Assembly: GCA_003553525.1 (NCBI GenBank)
Contig: PWEO01000020.1
Coordinates: 1 to 60,587 of the forward strand
DNA: 60,587 bases
Reading direction: 5' to 3'
From: Clostridiaceae bacterium
GTDB lineage: Bacteria > Bacillota > Clostridia > Peptostreptococcales > T1SED10-28
Part shown: in pieces, positions 13,527-49,596 of the stretch
How positions within the stretch are numbered: position 1 is the stretch's first letter
Layout: each line of letters opens with the position of its first letter
Made by a program: the position numbers and the translations under genes
Notes under the pieces: model-generated
What the model was told of the DNA's origin: nothing
Databases searched by the model: none
Seen by the model: the letters and a program-made list of their open reading frames with translations, nothing else

Positions 13527-14676
13527 TTCGTATCACCTCAATCGGTTGCAATTTTGAAGATTTCTTCGCAGGAATCAACGCGGCTAAGGTTGAGGCCGCC
13601 ACCGCAATCACAAAAGAAAGTGCAATAAAATTGTAGTTGATTACAATCTCCACCACGGGGCTTCCATCGGGGTTCGTTGCGAAAATCATAAAACTGAAAG
13701 AAAGTAGCAAGCCCAGAGCAATTCCGATCAGACCTCCCAGGATTCCCAAAATTAGTCCTTGAAATAAAAAAATCAGACTGGCGGATTGGTCATTGACCCC
13801 CATGGCTTTCAGTATACCAATTTGTTTGGAACGCTGTAATACAGAAATCGCCAGTACACTGGAGATACCCAGCACCACAGCCACTACAACAAAAATCTGG
13901 ATCATTATACTGGAAATATCCTGCCCCTGCAAGCCGCTAAGAAGGTCCTGATTAGCCTCTTTCCAATTGGTAACCTTCACATCTTCACCCAGCAGTCCTT
14001 GAATCTCTTCACTTATGGTGTCCGCCTCAAATACTTCCCCCACCTGAATTTCTAAGGCGGTAACCGAAGCCTCCCGCTGAAATATTTCCTGGGCGGTCTG
14101 TAATTCGCTGACAATCCATGATTCATTTAAGTTCGTCACGCCGAAATCAAAAATACCGGTAATCTCAACGTCACCCTGATCTCCGTCAAAATTGAATATT
14201 TCCAATACATCCCTGATTTTCAGGTTTAAGTTTTCAGCCAAACCGATACCTACCATAACTTCTCCCGAGTTCTCCGGCAGACTTCCTTCAGTGATTTTTT
14301 CCTGAAACCCGTAAATTCCTTCTGCTTTTTCAAATTCAAAGCCTCGGATCAAGGCGGATTCCGCCTCCTCTTCAAGACTTATAAAAGCGGGCAACGTTAA
14401 GGTTGGAGAAAGCTCCTCCACCCCTTCAATTTCATCCCGTACTGTATCTTCCTTCTCCTGATAATCAAAAATTTCTCCGTTGTTTTCCACGGCTTCAATG
14501 GTAATTTGGGATGAGTTCCCGATGGTGGAATCCACCAAGCTGGCTTGCAGTCCCTGGATCAGCAAACCGATAAATACCTGAACAGAAATCCCGATGGCAA
14601 TCCCCGCCAGAATCAGCAGGGTCTGTCCCTTCCCCGACTTTAAGAAACGCCAGGCAATTTTAAGAGGAAACTTCAT
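13519..14676 (-). CDS. ABC transporter permease (FtsX/MacB-like, MacB-PCD)
   Basis: N-terminal TM, large periplasmic-type domain, C-terminal SVLQRSKQIGILKAMG...TLAALIPAKKSSKLQPIEVIR. Confidence 0.93.
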   Translation of the reverse strand: MKFPLKIAWRFLKSGKGQTLLILAGIAIGISVQVFIGLLIQGLQASLVDSTIGNSSQITIEAVENNGEIFDYQEKEDTVRDEIEGVEELSPTLTLPAFISLEEEAESALIRGFEFEKAEGIYGFQEKITEGSLPENSGEVMVGIGLAENLNLKIRDVLEIFNFDGDQGDVEITGIFDFGVTNLNESWIVSELQTAQEIFQREASVTALEIQVGEVFEADTISEEIQGLLGEDVKVTNWKEANQDLLSGLQGQDISSIMIQIFVVVAVVLGISSVLAISVLQRSKQIGILKAMGVNDQSASLIFLFQGLILGILGGLIGIALGLLLSFSFMIFATNPDGSPVVEIVINYNFIALSFVIAVAASTLAALIPAKKSSKLQPIEVIRNG

Positions 14677-15328
14677 TGATATTCTCTCCTAGGGCTTTGA
14701 TTTCTTCAAAGGTTTTCAGATATAAATCCGCACCCATTTCCTTTGCTACATCTTTTTTATTCTCCAGAGCATATCCGCCGACGATGATTTTCGGAACCTT
14801 CTTTAATTTATTTCGAAGAAACTCGATGCTTCTTTTAGCAGGTACGATATTATAATAATTCGATACGCTGATGGCCACATAGTCCGGCTGCAACTCTTCC
14901 ATTAATTCGATTAAATTTTCCCTCGGGGTGTTCCCCCCTAGAAATAGGGTCTCAAAACCACTTAAAGCAAAATAGTCCTCCACCATGCGGGGCCCGATTT
15001 CATGGTATTCGTCTTCGGGACAATAAATAACCACTCTTTTCCGATTCAATGCATCGGTATCAAAGCTCAAGCTTCGCTCTGCAATCACGAAGGGGTAACA
15101 ACACTCTACAATGGTTCGTACAATAGCGGTTCGGATATGCTCTTGGCCGATGGTTATGCTTTGTTCCTTTTCGTTAGAGGCAATCTCATAAAGAGCGGGT
15201 CTTAAAATTTCGTCATATAACGTAACAATATCCAGTTCTTTCCCGGAAACCAACTGCATAGCATAATTTACACTGTTCTCCTTGTCTTCCATTTTCAGAT
15301 GTTTCGTAAACTCCTGATAATATTTCAT
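14660..15328 (-). CDS. Cobalamin(B12)-binding domain protein, stand-alone sensor-like
   Basis: Helical cap domain ending IGQEHIRTAIVR, then YCPEDEYHEIGPRMVEDYFALSGFETLFLGGNTP (E/DxHxxG) and IIVGGYAL. Confidence 0.88.
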   Translation of the reverse strand: MKYYQEFTKHLKMEDKENSVNYAMQLVSGKELDIVTLYDEILRPALYEIASNEKEQSITIGQEHIRTAIVRTIVECCYPFVIAERSLSFDTDALNRKRVVIYCPEDEYHEIGPRMVEDYFALSGFETLFLGGNTPRENLIELMEELQPDYVAISVSNYYNIVPAKRSIEFLRNKLKKVPKIIVGGYALENKKDVAKEMGADLYLKTFEEIKALGENINEVSS

Positions 15329-19445: not shown

Positions 19446-19542
19446 CAACGAGGCAAATAAACTCGCAGCTGGCTGCCATAGTGATGCCACTTTAGGCCCT
19501 GTTAGCTTTGCGTCTTTGCCTTTCGGCAAATTTGCCTATGAA
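19446..19542 (-). ncRNA. Cyclic di-GMP-I (GEMM-I) riboswitch
   Basis: Minus reads AGGCAAATTTGCCGAAAGGCAAAGACGCAAAGCTAACAGGGCCTAAAGTGGCATCACTATGGCAGCCAGCTGCGAGTTTATTTGCCT: GAAA tetraloop stem, GACGCAAAGC, GGCCTAAA, P1 AGGCAAAT/ATTTGCCT. Confidence 0.93.
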
Positions 19543-19624
19543 ATTATGTTTAGGAAAACCGCTGATATTCTCTCCTCTAATAACTCATTTATAATCATTT
19601 CTCTTTTTTATAATACATAGTACT

Positions 19625-45774: not shown

Positions 45775-46536
45775 TTAGTACCGCGTTCTTCTCTTGTAAA
45801 ACTTTAACATCCCGCTCCCTATGACAATACACACTGCGGCAACCAAGGGTAGAATTTGAAGTGCTAAGGTTCCGCTATTATTTTGAATACTGATTCCTAT
45901 AAAAGCCCAAACAAATACTGCGGCAAAAATCAGATCACCGTAATACTTTACAAATACCAGGGCCAGTATTGTTGCAATACCAATTAGCAGGCCGGTCCAA
46001 ATCCCTTCTCCGAACAGCCAATAATTCCAATCCATATAATCAAAAAATATAAAAACATTGGCAATAGTGGCCACGCAAATCCAGGCTAGATAAATGGAGA
46101 ACGGTGCTTTAACAAAGAAGCTTTCCTCCTGAGGAACCCCTTGTGTTTTTTGGTTCAGTTTCCCGTATATTACAGCTAAATTAAGTAAAAGTAAAACTAT
46201 AATCCCTAAAGCAGTACCGATATATAAATAGTGCCAGGCAATAATCCAAGCACTGTTTAAAACACAGGATAAGACGAACCAGGCACTGATTCTGTCAATA
46301 TTTCCACTCCTGCGGGAACCGGGAAGCAACTGATAGATGCCAAACATGATAAGACCAAGATAAATTAATCCCCAGATGGCAAATACATAACCTGCAGGTG
46401 TAAAGTATACCCCGAATCGATCTGATACTTCTCCGGAAGTGACTTCGTTGATCGGCAGTGCATTGGCTAAATAGTTTACGGTTAACACCAGACCTAAGGC
46501 TAGTATATTAATTATTTTGCCTAGATTTCTCTTCAC
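45775..46536 (-). CDS. TspO/MBR-like tryptophan-rich membrane protein
   Basis: TPAGYVFAIWGLIYLGL..WFVLSCVLNSAWIIAWHY..FSIYLAWICVATIANV. Confidence 0.8.
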   Translation of the reverse strand: MKRNLGKIINILALGLVLTVNYLANALPINEVTSGEVSDRFGVYFTPAGYVFAIWGLIYLGLIMFGIYQLLPGSRRSGNIDRISAWFVLSCVLNSAWIIAWHYLYIGTALGIIVLLLLNLAVIYGKLNQKTQGVPQEESFFVKAPFSIYLAWICVATIANVFIFFDYMDWNYWLFGEGIWTGLLIGIATILALVFVKYYGDLIFAAVFVWAFIGISIQNNSGTLALQILPLVAAVCIVIGSGMLKFYKRRTRY

Positions 46537-47612: not shown

Positions 47613-47640
47613 AAGAGCAACAGATTTTTCTGTTGCTCTT
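47613..47640 (-). terminator. Intrinsic terminator of the B12-regulated operon
   Basis: AAGAGCAACAG-AAAAAT-CTGTTGCTCTT then TTACTTTTT on minus. Confidence 0.8.
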
Positions 47641-47649
47641 AGCATATTG

Positions 47650-48153
47650 TTATCTTATATAATATTGTTTCAGTTGAGAGCTGAAGATTTTTACCAAGGG
47701 ATTAAAAAGGATTATGGCTATAATATAATTCGACGCCCCGTGGAGTATATCCAATGGAATACCCCGAGCCCAATAAGCCATTCCATAGGCGATGCCATAG
47801 AAAAAGGATTCAAACACCGCAAAGAAAAACCCGAAGGAGAGTCCGAAGATACCTGAAATTATGGCAAATCCGTACTCGCTTTTGACTTTCCCCTTCAAAA
47901 CTCCTGTGGCCAAAATAAGAATCGGCCAGATAAGATAGTAACCCAGTACCCAGGTAGAAAAACCGTATAAAAATATTTCCGTGGTTGCAAAAATAACCGA
48001 AATCAATAGGGTCCTCTTTACTCCCAAAGCCACGGTGTATACCATAAACAGCAGGCTGACCACTTCCACGTTGGGAACGAAGCTGAGGGCTAACTTCCCG
48101 GCGGTTAGTGAGGCGCTTAAAATACTTATTAATACTAAATCTTGAACTTTCAT
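47650..48153 (-). CDS. ECF transporter S-component-like membrane protein, candidate corrinoid uptake subunit
   Basis: MKVQDLVLISILSASLTAGKLALSFVPNVEVVSLLFMVYTV... 5-6 TM; immediately downstream of B12-riboswitch-led gene; start chosen at MKV (ORF track 48195). Confidence 0.75.
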   Translation of the reverse strand: MKVQDLVLISILSASLTAGKLALSFVPNVEVVSLLFMVYTVALGVKRTLLISVIFATTEIFLYGFSTWVLGYYLIWPILILATGVLKGKVKSEYGFAIISGIFGLSFGFFFAVFESFFYGIAYGMAYWARGIPLDILHGASNYIIAIILFNPLVKIFSSQLKQYYIR

Positions 48154-48157
48154 TCCA

Positions 48158-49225
48158 TTAAAAGTCTCTACGTTGGAGTTCATATACATCTCCATCCTTT
48201 ATTTCAATTCCCGAAAGTCCGGTTTCTGCATCTTCTCCGTTAACTAAAATGTGAAGATATTCTCCATCACTATTCATTTCATACCCTAATATTTCCGTAA
48301 TTGACATTCCAAAGTCTGTCATTTCATATTCCAATTCTAATACTTCTGCTTCATCTTCAATCATTTCCGATACATATGCCTGCTCTGTTTGAAACGTAAA
48401 CTCTTCGGCAATATCTTCCGTGTCGATGGTCACTATAAAGGTCACTTCCATTGTATCAGAGACTTCCCCTTCGTCCTCTTCATCATCCATTGGGGCAAAG
48501 CTTCTAAGCTCAAGTTCATATTCATCCCCATCGATCATCTCAATTCCCGAAACTCCAGTCTCCGCATCCTCTCCGTTCACTAAGATATGAAGATACTCTG
48601 TACTTGCGTCAAGCTCATAGCCTAGAATTTCCGTAATGGATAGACCAAAATCCGTATCCTCATATTCCGCTTCTAAGGTTTCTCCTTCCTCTTCAATTAA
48701 CTGTGAGAGGTATTCCTGCTCCGTTTGAAACGTAAATTCCTCTGCAATATTTTCTTTTTCGATGGTAACTCTGAAAGTTACTTCCTTATCTTCTGCCTCT
48801 TCCCCTTCATCGGGATCATCCATCTCACCGAATCCTCGAAGCTCCAGTACATATTCATCTCCATCTATTAACGGTATCCCGGAAGCGCCGTACTCCGCAT
48901 CTTCACCATTTACTAAAATATGAAAGTACTCCGAAGAACTGTCCACTTCATATCCCAGCGCACCGGTAATCATCATCCCTAAGGTGCTGTGTTCATCATA
49001 GCTTAACTTCAAAGTCTCTTGTTCTTCCTCTAAAAGTTCTCCAAAAAATTCATGATCCGTTTGAAAAGTAAACTCTTCGTTGATGTTTTCCTTATCGACG
49101 ATTACCTGCAGGCTTACTTCTTTTTCTCCTTCAACCCCTGAGGGTCCTAAATAAGTATTGTATAATGCCCCTAAAATAATTACTGCTGCAATAACACCGA
49201 TAATCGATAATATTTTCTTATTCAT
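48158..49225 (-). CDS. N-terminally anchored protein with three DUF4430 (transcobalamin-C-like) repeats
   Basis: N-terminal signal-anchor then three ~97-aa repeats each with [FL]HILVNGEDAE.G.SGI...DGD.Y.L. Confidence 0.8.
   Translation of the reverse strand: MNKKILSIIGVIAAVIILGALYNTYLGPSGVEGEKEVSLQVIVDKENINEEFTFQTDHEFFGELLEEEQETLKLSYDEHSTLGMMITGALGYEVDSSSEYFHILVNGEDAEYGASGIPLIDGDEYVLELRGFGEMDDPDEGEEAEDKEVTFRVTIEKENIAEEFTFQTEQEYLSQLIEEEGETLEAEYEDTDFGLSITEILGYELDASTEYLHILVNGEDAETGVSGIEMIDGDEYELELRSFAPMDDEEDEGEVSDTMEVTFIVTIDTEDIAEEFTFQTEQAYVSEMIEDEAEVLELEYEMTDFGMSITEILGYEMNSDGEYLHILVNGEDAETGLSGIEIKDGDVYELQRRDF
48161..49123 (-). repeat. Threefold intragenic domain repeat (approx. 49123-48830, 48790-48497, 48451-48161)
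   Basis: Aligned repeats EEFTFQT(D/E)(H/Q)...ITxxLGYE..S.EY(F/L)HILVNGEDAE. Confidence 0.85.
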
Positions 49226-49256
49226 GTTGAAACCTCCTGTTTTTTTAATTAAAAAT

Positions 49257-49282
49257 CCCCTCTCAACCGAAGTTGAAAGGGG
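49257..49282 (-). terminator. Riboswitch expression-platform terminator
   Basis: CCCCTTTCAACTTCGGTTGAGAGGGG followed by ATTTTT on minus strand, upstream of the DUF4430 gene. Confidence 0.85.
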
Positions 49283-49384
49283 TAGATTGTTAAATCCTTT
49301 ACTGAGTAATTGTCCAGCTTTAGATTTCCTGCAGTTTCTGCAGATCTCCCTTCCTTCAATCCCTCGTGAAGTGTAATGGCATTT

Positions 49385-49530
49385 TTTTTCGGCAGGTCTT
49401 CCGGCTTAGCATATTGGATATTTTCCTTCCCGGTTTCCCAGTGGTTTAATAAATATCCCTTTCATGCCTTACGGCGGCGAGGACCGCGCAGGTATCACAC
49501 CTGCTTCCCTTTTCATGTACGTTCTACAAC
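49385..49530 (-). ncRNA. Cobalamin (B12) riboswitch
   Basis: Minus reads GAAAAGGGAAGCAGGTGTGATACCTGCGCGGTCCTCGCCGCCGTAAGG...CCACTGGGAAACCGGGAAGG...AAGCCGGAAGACCTGCC (B12 box). Confidence 0.95.
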
Positions 49531-49596
49531 CCAAAAAAAATCTCTATGAAATTGTCTACTTATCCATCTTAATATGAATGGAATTAAAATGCAATG

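Follow-up and report, generated by a model that had tools for sequence, protein, structure and literature searches.

In the 2.69-Mb, 99% complete genome of a Clostridiaceae bacterium, a cobalamin riboswitch heads a two-gene unit that encodes an anchored surface protein with three DUF4430 repeats and a membrane protein homologous to CbrT, an ECF S component. The unit is likely a B12-repressed corrinoid salvage operon, in which the DUF4430 array would capture corrinoids and the CbrT-type S component together with EcfAA'T would import them. It lies on contig C86, whose 60,587 nucleotides make up the whole stretch of DNA analyzed here (the window). The features of the unit are as follows.

49374..49549, minus strand: cobalamin riboswitch aptamer, full length (RF00174, 104.3 bits, E=4.5e-25, model positions 1-189)
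49257..49282, minus strand: intrinsic terminator of the leader, in the gap between aptamer and first gene (CCCCTTTCAACTTCGGTTGAGAGGGG followed by ATTTTT, 11 pairs, hairpin -18.0 kcal/mol)
49233..49238, minus strand: Shine-Dalgarno sequence AGGAGG of the DUF4430 gene, read from the sequence
48158..49225, minus strand: anchored triple-DUF4430 surface protein of 355 aa, candidate ECF accessory component (open reading frame, PF14478 and models)
49148..49225, minus strand: N-terminal membrane anchor, residues 1-26 (helix 3-26 in the model; no lipobox Cys)
48830..49132, minus strand: DUF4430 domain 1, residues 32-132 (128.6 bits; pLDDT 91.9; transcobalamin beta matches)
48497..48796, minus strand: DUF4430 domain 2, residues 144-243 (123.7 bits)
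48161..48460, minus strand: DUF4430 domain 3, residues 256-355 (111.4 bits)
47650..48195, minus strand: CbrT-like ECF S component (CbrT homology; 181 aa if counted from the first ATG)
47613..47640, minus strand: terminator closing the two-gene unit (12 pairs, then TACTTTTT)

The riboswitch had been placed at 49530-49385 of the minus strand in a preliminary description of the sequence, and this range falls within the RF00174 match at 49549-49374 obtained in the covariance-model scan, for which the gathering score was 31.5 bits and, per clan, the RF00174 model alone was retained. The B12 box quoted there was found in the sequence, and the hairpin ending in ATTTTT was confirmed downstream of the aptamer (49282-49257). 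A hairpin followed by a T-run recurs in the related leaders analyzed. For an antiterminator, the best pairing between a terminator arm and the upstream leader was no better than in shuffled controls in most loci.

Control of the operon by B12, as initially proposed, is supported by the RF00174 match and by its recurrence before orthologous pairs. Among 98 genomes searched, the S component adjoins the DUF4430 protein in all 10 carriers, the host included, and the aptamer lies directly upstream of the orthologous pair in eight of the nine order-level relatives in which the pair was found. A scan of a named-genome collection gave 26 pair loci, 24 of which were scanned for RNA families, with RF00174 just upstream of the pair in 23. 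Since the 2.69-Mb host genome has only two cobalamin riboswitches, one before the C86 operon and one before an operon on contig C27, the association of riboswitch and pair in eight of nine relatives and 23 of 24 loci goes beyond chance. At the exception (L070/L046), a search relaxed to E≤1 still detected no riboswitch close to the pair; in that genome, the riboswitch is located at G067:C54:99220-99348, upstream of btuF, and heads a cluster in the order btuFCD, adenosyltransferase, DUF4430, and S component.

The pair is a tight two-gene unit, the genes often overlapping, and some loci have a cobalamin-adenosyltransferase-like gene in between. At L044 and L046 (G038 contig C33 and G067 contig C54), the DUF4430/S pair shares a cluster with btuFCD-like genes and a cobalamin-adenosyltransferase-like gene, which brings two B12 importer types together. 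Adjacent DUF4430 and CbrT-like genes were also observed on a plasmid of Subdoligranulum variabile, a gut Oscillospiraceae (OY725838.1, positions 105410-106178, L152).

No family name was obtained for the S component from Pfam or NCBIfam. Among PDB sequences, CbrT (6fnp) was its sole match (phmmer E=3.6e-11, residues 14-168), and in a profile search the match to CbrT spanned almost the full length (E=1.5e-13), in agreement with the first reading of this membrane protein as an ECF S component. Its reported position a few nucleotides downstream of the DUF4430 gene holds for the start that the alignment shows to be common to all homologues (MKV..., ATG at 48153, 4 nt after the DUF4430 stop) and fails for the first ATG, which creates a 38-nt overlap with the DUF4430 gene. 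The terminator after the S gene was likewise confirmed (47640-47613). The shared motor, predicted to be encoded elsewhere in the genome, was found on contig C22, where EcfA, EcfA', and EcfT are encoded between rplQ and truA in the group II arrangement.

The FecCD/BtuC permease family (PF01032) had no match in the host genome or in five family relatives (0/6), and FecCD permeases are present in more distant relatives. A BtuFCD importer in the host genome was excluded on this ground, and as judged by sequence homology, the CbrT-like unit is the sole corrinoid importer recognized there.

Judging by its gene content, the host can probably make B12 itself by a near-complete anaerobic pathway. Contigs C209 and C107 carry cbiT, cbiL, cbiF, cbiG, cbiH, cbiJ, cbiP, and cbiB, together with genes for a CbiX-like chelatase, a cobA-hemD-like gene, and CobU-like and CobS-like genes; cbiA, cbiC, cbiD, and cbiE were not sought individually in this inventory. 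The B12-using enzymes encoded are methylmalonyl-CoA mutase, D-ornithine aminomutase OraE, and a MetH-like protein. For a probable B12 maker, the operon would therefore be a regulated salvage route and not the sole source of B12. Feeding of an auxotroph, considered as the role of the unit, was ruled out by the near-complete pathway and the CbiMQO genes on C209 and C107.

The B12 biosynthesis and CbiMQO genes (C209 and C107; L104, L089, and L109) showed no cobalamin riboswitch, whereas both salvage operons (C86 and C27) have one. In the C27 operon (C27:1-1578, L058), the riboswitch precedes two genes, one for an ECF S component and the other for a protein with an AIRS domain, and the contig stops inside the latter. 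The S component encoded there matches PF12822 and belongs to another S-component family than the CbrT-like one; we take the arrangement to be CblT/CblS-like and to serve alpha-ribazole salvage. The host habitat appears to be sediment from the sample codes of the nearest MAGs, labelled Clostridiales or Clostridiaceae bacterium, and a soda lake origin of these MAGs is a guess from the sample codes alone.

The anchored protein with three DUF4430 repeats, the only DUF4430 protein encoded in the host genome, was borne out by PF14478, by the family profile, and by the helix at residues 3-26. The whole protein matched PF14478 with E=3.7e-16 and 59.8 bits against a gathering score of 23.8, single repeats scored 21.5 to 23.3 bits in the six-frame scan, slightly below that cut-off, and the family profile recovered three full-length domains at 111 to 129 bits each. 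From the N-terminal helix and the missing Cys, the protein is held by an anchor and is not a lipoprotein. Domain 2 is 61% identical to domain 1 and 70% identical to domain 3. The full-length model contains three like domains joined by low-confidence linkers, and with a pTM of 0.35, their mutual arrangement is unreliable.

The usual form of the DUF4430 protein is an anchored protein of 131 to 132 aa with one domain, and the three-domain form occurs in the host genus and in one other genus (G038/G067). In the maximum-likelihood tree of domains, the 12 domains of the host genus form one group and the six of G038/G067 another, each set apart from the rest at support 100. Most simply, this branching suggests that triplication occurred twice and was lineage specific; gene conversion between repeats could exaggerate the grouping.

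Kinship of DUF4430 to the C-terminal domain of transcobalamin, asserted at the outset, was examined at the level of fold. Domain 1 was modelled with AlphaFold2 from a 24-row alignment (pLDDT 91.9) and compared to the PDB with Foldseek, which gave 19 matches at E≤0.001. Two of them are the DUF4430 structure 3u7z, the nearest solved one, which is titled 'putative metal binding protein'. The others are without exception structures of transcobalamin, intrinsic factor, or haptocorrin, among them 5np4, in which isolated human TC-beta holds cyanocobalamin. The beta-domain matches had Foldseek E values of 4.6e-6 to 4.5e-4 and TMq of 0.72 to 0.84. The fold is thus common to the DUF4430 domain and human TC-beta (PDB 5no0 and 5np4), with TM-scores of 0.72 to 0.80 over the query for the TC entries and about 17 to 20% identity. 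The sequence search reached the haptocorrin C-terminal domain only at E=1, so the relation of DUF4430 to transcobalamin rests on fold.

The very high affinity of transcobalamin requires its alpha domain. An alpha6/alpha6 toroid is absent from the DUF4430 protein, and PF00432 had no match in the host genome or in four family genomes; a hidden alpha-domain partner encoded elsewhere in the host was ruled out by the same search. Without the toroid, the DUF4430 protein is not a transcobalamin and is at most TC-beta-like in action. The proposed transcobalamin analogue therefore stands as an analogue of the beta domain by fold and falls as a full transcobalamin. Isolated human TC-beta alone binds cobalamin and cobinamide with an affinity below that of the two-domain protein (PMC5599065), which makes a beta-only capture protein plausible.

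Class-wide, DUF4430 was found in 67 of 147 genomes. Distant homologues of the S component are encoded in larger operons with a DUF4430 lipoprotein, EcfT, a fused EcfA pair, the S component, and an alpha-toroid protein, and RF00174 was present in four of nine distant loci combining DUF4430 with EcfT, EcfA, and S. The alpha-toroid proteins (Prenyltrans/SQHop) of these operons often have S-layer domains, and some operons encode a large surface protein that matches both SQHop and DUF4430. Among the class-wide DUF4430-ECF operons, RF00174 was detected within about 12 kb upstream in six of 11 and not in the other five; one of these five riboswitch-negative stretches has an FMN riboswitch before a different gene. 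Within 1.5-kb flanks, class-wide DUF4430 loci showed no riboswitch. In the order-level relatives at L051, L053, L055, and L056, riboswitch operons encode a DUF4430 lipoprotein, EcfT, EcfAA', the S component, and alpha-toroid proteins, and a single L051 polypeptide has DUF4430 after an SQHop match, the order seen in animal transcobalamin.

The pairing of alpha-toroid and DUF4430 recalls the two halves of transcobalamin, of which the host uses the beta part alone. Tentatively, Clostridia may carry a true transcobalamin counterpart that feeds ECF transporters, made of surface alpha-toroid and beta parts that are split or fused in relatives, with the host retaining an anchored three-domain, beta-only array for multivalent capture and hand-over to CbrT; descent shared with animal transcobalamin would be possible.

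For the operon itself, we propose the following course. At low (adenosyl)cobalamin, the riboswitch would permit read-through of the leader terminator, as expected from the known behavior of its family, and the DUF4430 array and the S component would be made together, with three beta-like domains displayed outside the cell. From their fold alone, these domains may bind cobalamin, cobinamide, or both, with moderate affinity like that of isolated human TC-beta; with no alpha-toroid encoded in the genome, the beta domain would have to achieve capture by itself. Binding would raise the local corrinoid concentration at the membrane, and the corrinoid would be passed to the S component, which by homology to CbrT is predicted to dock to EcfAA'T for import at the cost of ATP. 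Points against this reading are the very weak sequence likeness of DUF4430 to transcobalamin, the title of 3u7z, the five of 11 operons free of a cobalamin riboswitch, an antiterminator pairing indistinguishable from chance, the probable own synthesis of B12, and the lack of an alpha domain.

It is also conceivable, if unlikely, that the S component alone imports corrinoids and that the DUF4430 protein is a non-binding structural or docking partner, either a stabilizer or a cell-wall spacer. The beta-grasp fold widely serves protein-protein contacts, the S gene overlaps or directly adjoins the DUF4430 gene, as would be expected if the products form a complex, and CbrT of L. delbrueckii transports B12 with the ECF module alone in liposomes and in E. 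coli (PMC5997447). Yet the significant structural matches beyond DUF4430 are all corrinoid carriers, and a threefold domain arising in two lineages is more in line with multivalent binding than with docking at a single contact.

Less probable still is a different ligand, such as free cobalt, another tetrapyrrole, or a corrinoid precursor, the riboswitch merely linking the system to B12 status. The metal-binding title of 3u7z fits such a ligand, precursors would profit a B12 producer, and the CblT/CblS-like operon on C27 shows that a B12-switched ECF system need not import B12. However, the S component matches CbrT specifically, cobalt is already covered by the importer genes CbiM/CbiQ/CbiO on contig C107, and neither Cys nor His is invariant in any column of the DUF4430 alignment. 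That the riboswitch is real and the genes a decaying, functionless remnant is very improbable: G001, a 98% complete genome of the same genus, unlike its congeners has neither the operon nor any cobalamin riboswitch, so the system is dispensable, but in four genomes of the genus the frames are open and conserved (S component 84 to 94% and DUF4430 protein 74 to 85% identical), with the riboswitches retained before them.

Further features were observed in the window. The B12 operon is followed, two genes downstream and at a position kept in the genus, by a gene for a TspO/MBR-like membrane protein (45775-46536, minus strand; E=2.2e-4, under the Pfam cut-off); TspO proteins bind tetrapyrroles. A c-di-GMP-I riboswitch (19461-19546, minus strand, 72.7 bits) lies directly upstream of, or overlaps, the called start of the gene at 19479-17173 (minus strand) for a 768-aa TPR-GAF-GGDEF-like protein, and the two could form a c-di-GMP feedback loop. 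At 14660-15328 on the minus strand, a 222-aa corrinoid-binding-domain-like protein (PF02310, 46.5 bits) is encoded upstream of a MacB-like permease and an ATPase.

Corrinoid binding by DUF4430 proteins, if real, would give ECF-CbrT a partner dedicated to extracellular capture and built on the fold used in animals; to our knowledge, textbook ECF transporters have no such partner. The operon is a compact two-gene test case, and its single-domain homologues offer a natural comparison for the effect of domain repetition. In the literature searched, no work mentioning DUF4430 concerned bacterial B12 uptake, nothing relevant combined transcobalamin, ECF, and prenyltransferase, and no paper was found in which a DUF4430-type accessory protein of a cobalamin ECF transporter was tested.

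Already known are ECF-CbrT (PMC5997447) and the annotation of an accessory lipoprotein (PMC9963975); new are the tandem, lipobox-free, beta-only accessory form, its two origins, and the link to surface alpha-toroid proteins. ECF-CbrT of Lactobacillus delbrueckii (PDB 6fnp), a group II transporter, imports cobalamin and cobinamide, and its genes are ordered nrdJ-cbrS-cbrT-pduO, where cbrS is named and left undiscussed (PMC5997447). The host system resembles it in the homologous S component, the shared EcfAA'T motor, and an accessory gene beside the S gene, and differs in being a unit of two genes with a cobalamin riboswitch, a three-DUF4430 accessory protein, and de novo B12 genes. In Lacticaseibacillus rhamnosus, a DUF4430 protein is encoded near rtpR, the gene of a B12-dependent reductase, and a Lacticaseibacillus protein is annotated as 'additional lipoprotein component of putative cobalamin ECF transporter' and not equated with the DUF4430 protein (PMC9963975). 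These entries are annotation only, as a lipoprotein, whereas the host protein has an uncleaved anchor, no lipobox Cys, and three domains. Human transcobalamin differs from the DUF4430 protein, which has tandem copies, is membrane anchored, and occurs in a genome without the alpha domain. The C27 operon shares a cobalamin riboswitch and an ECF S component with the unit but has an AIRS-domain partner in place of DUF4430 and an S component of another family. In Gram-negatives, BtuG serves a TonB-dependent outer-membrane transporter. The BtuG surface lipoproteins of Bacteroides (PMC6143338) are like the host system in the capture of B12 at the surface before an importer, a likeness of function alone.
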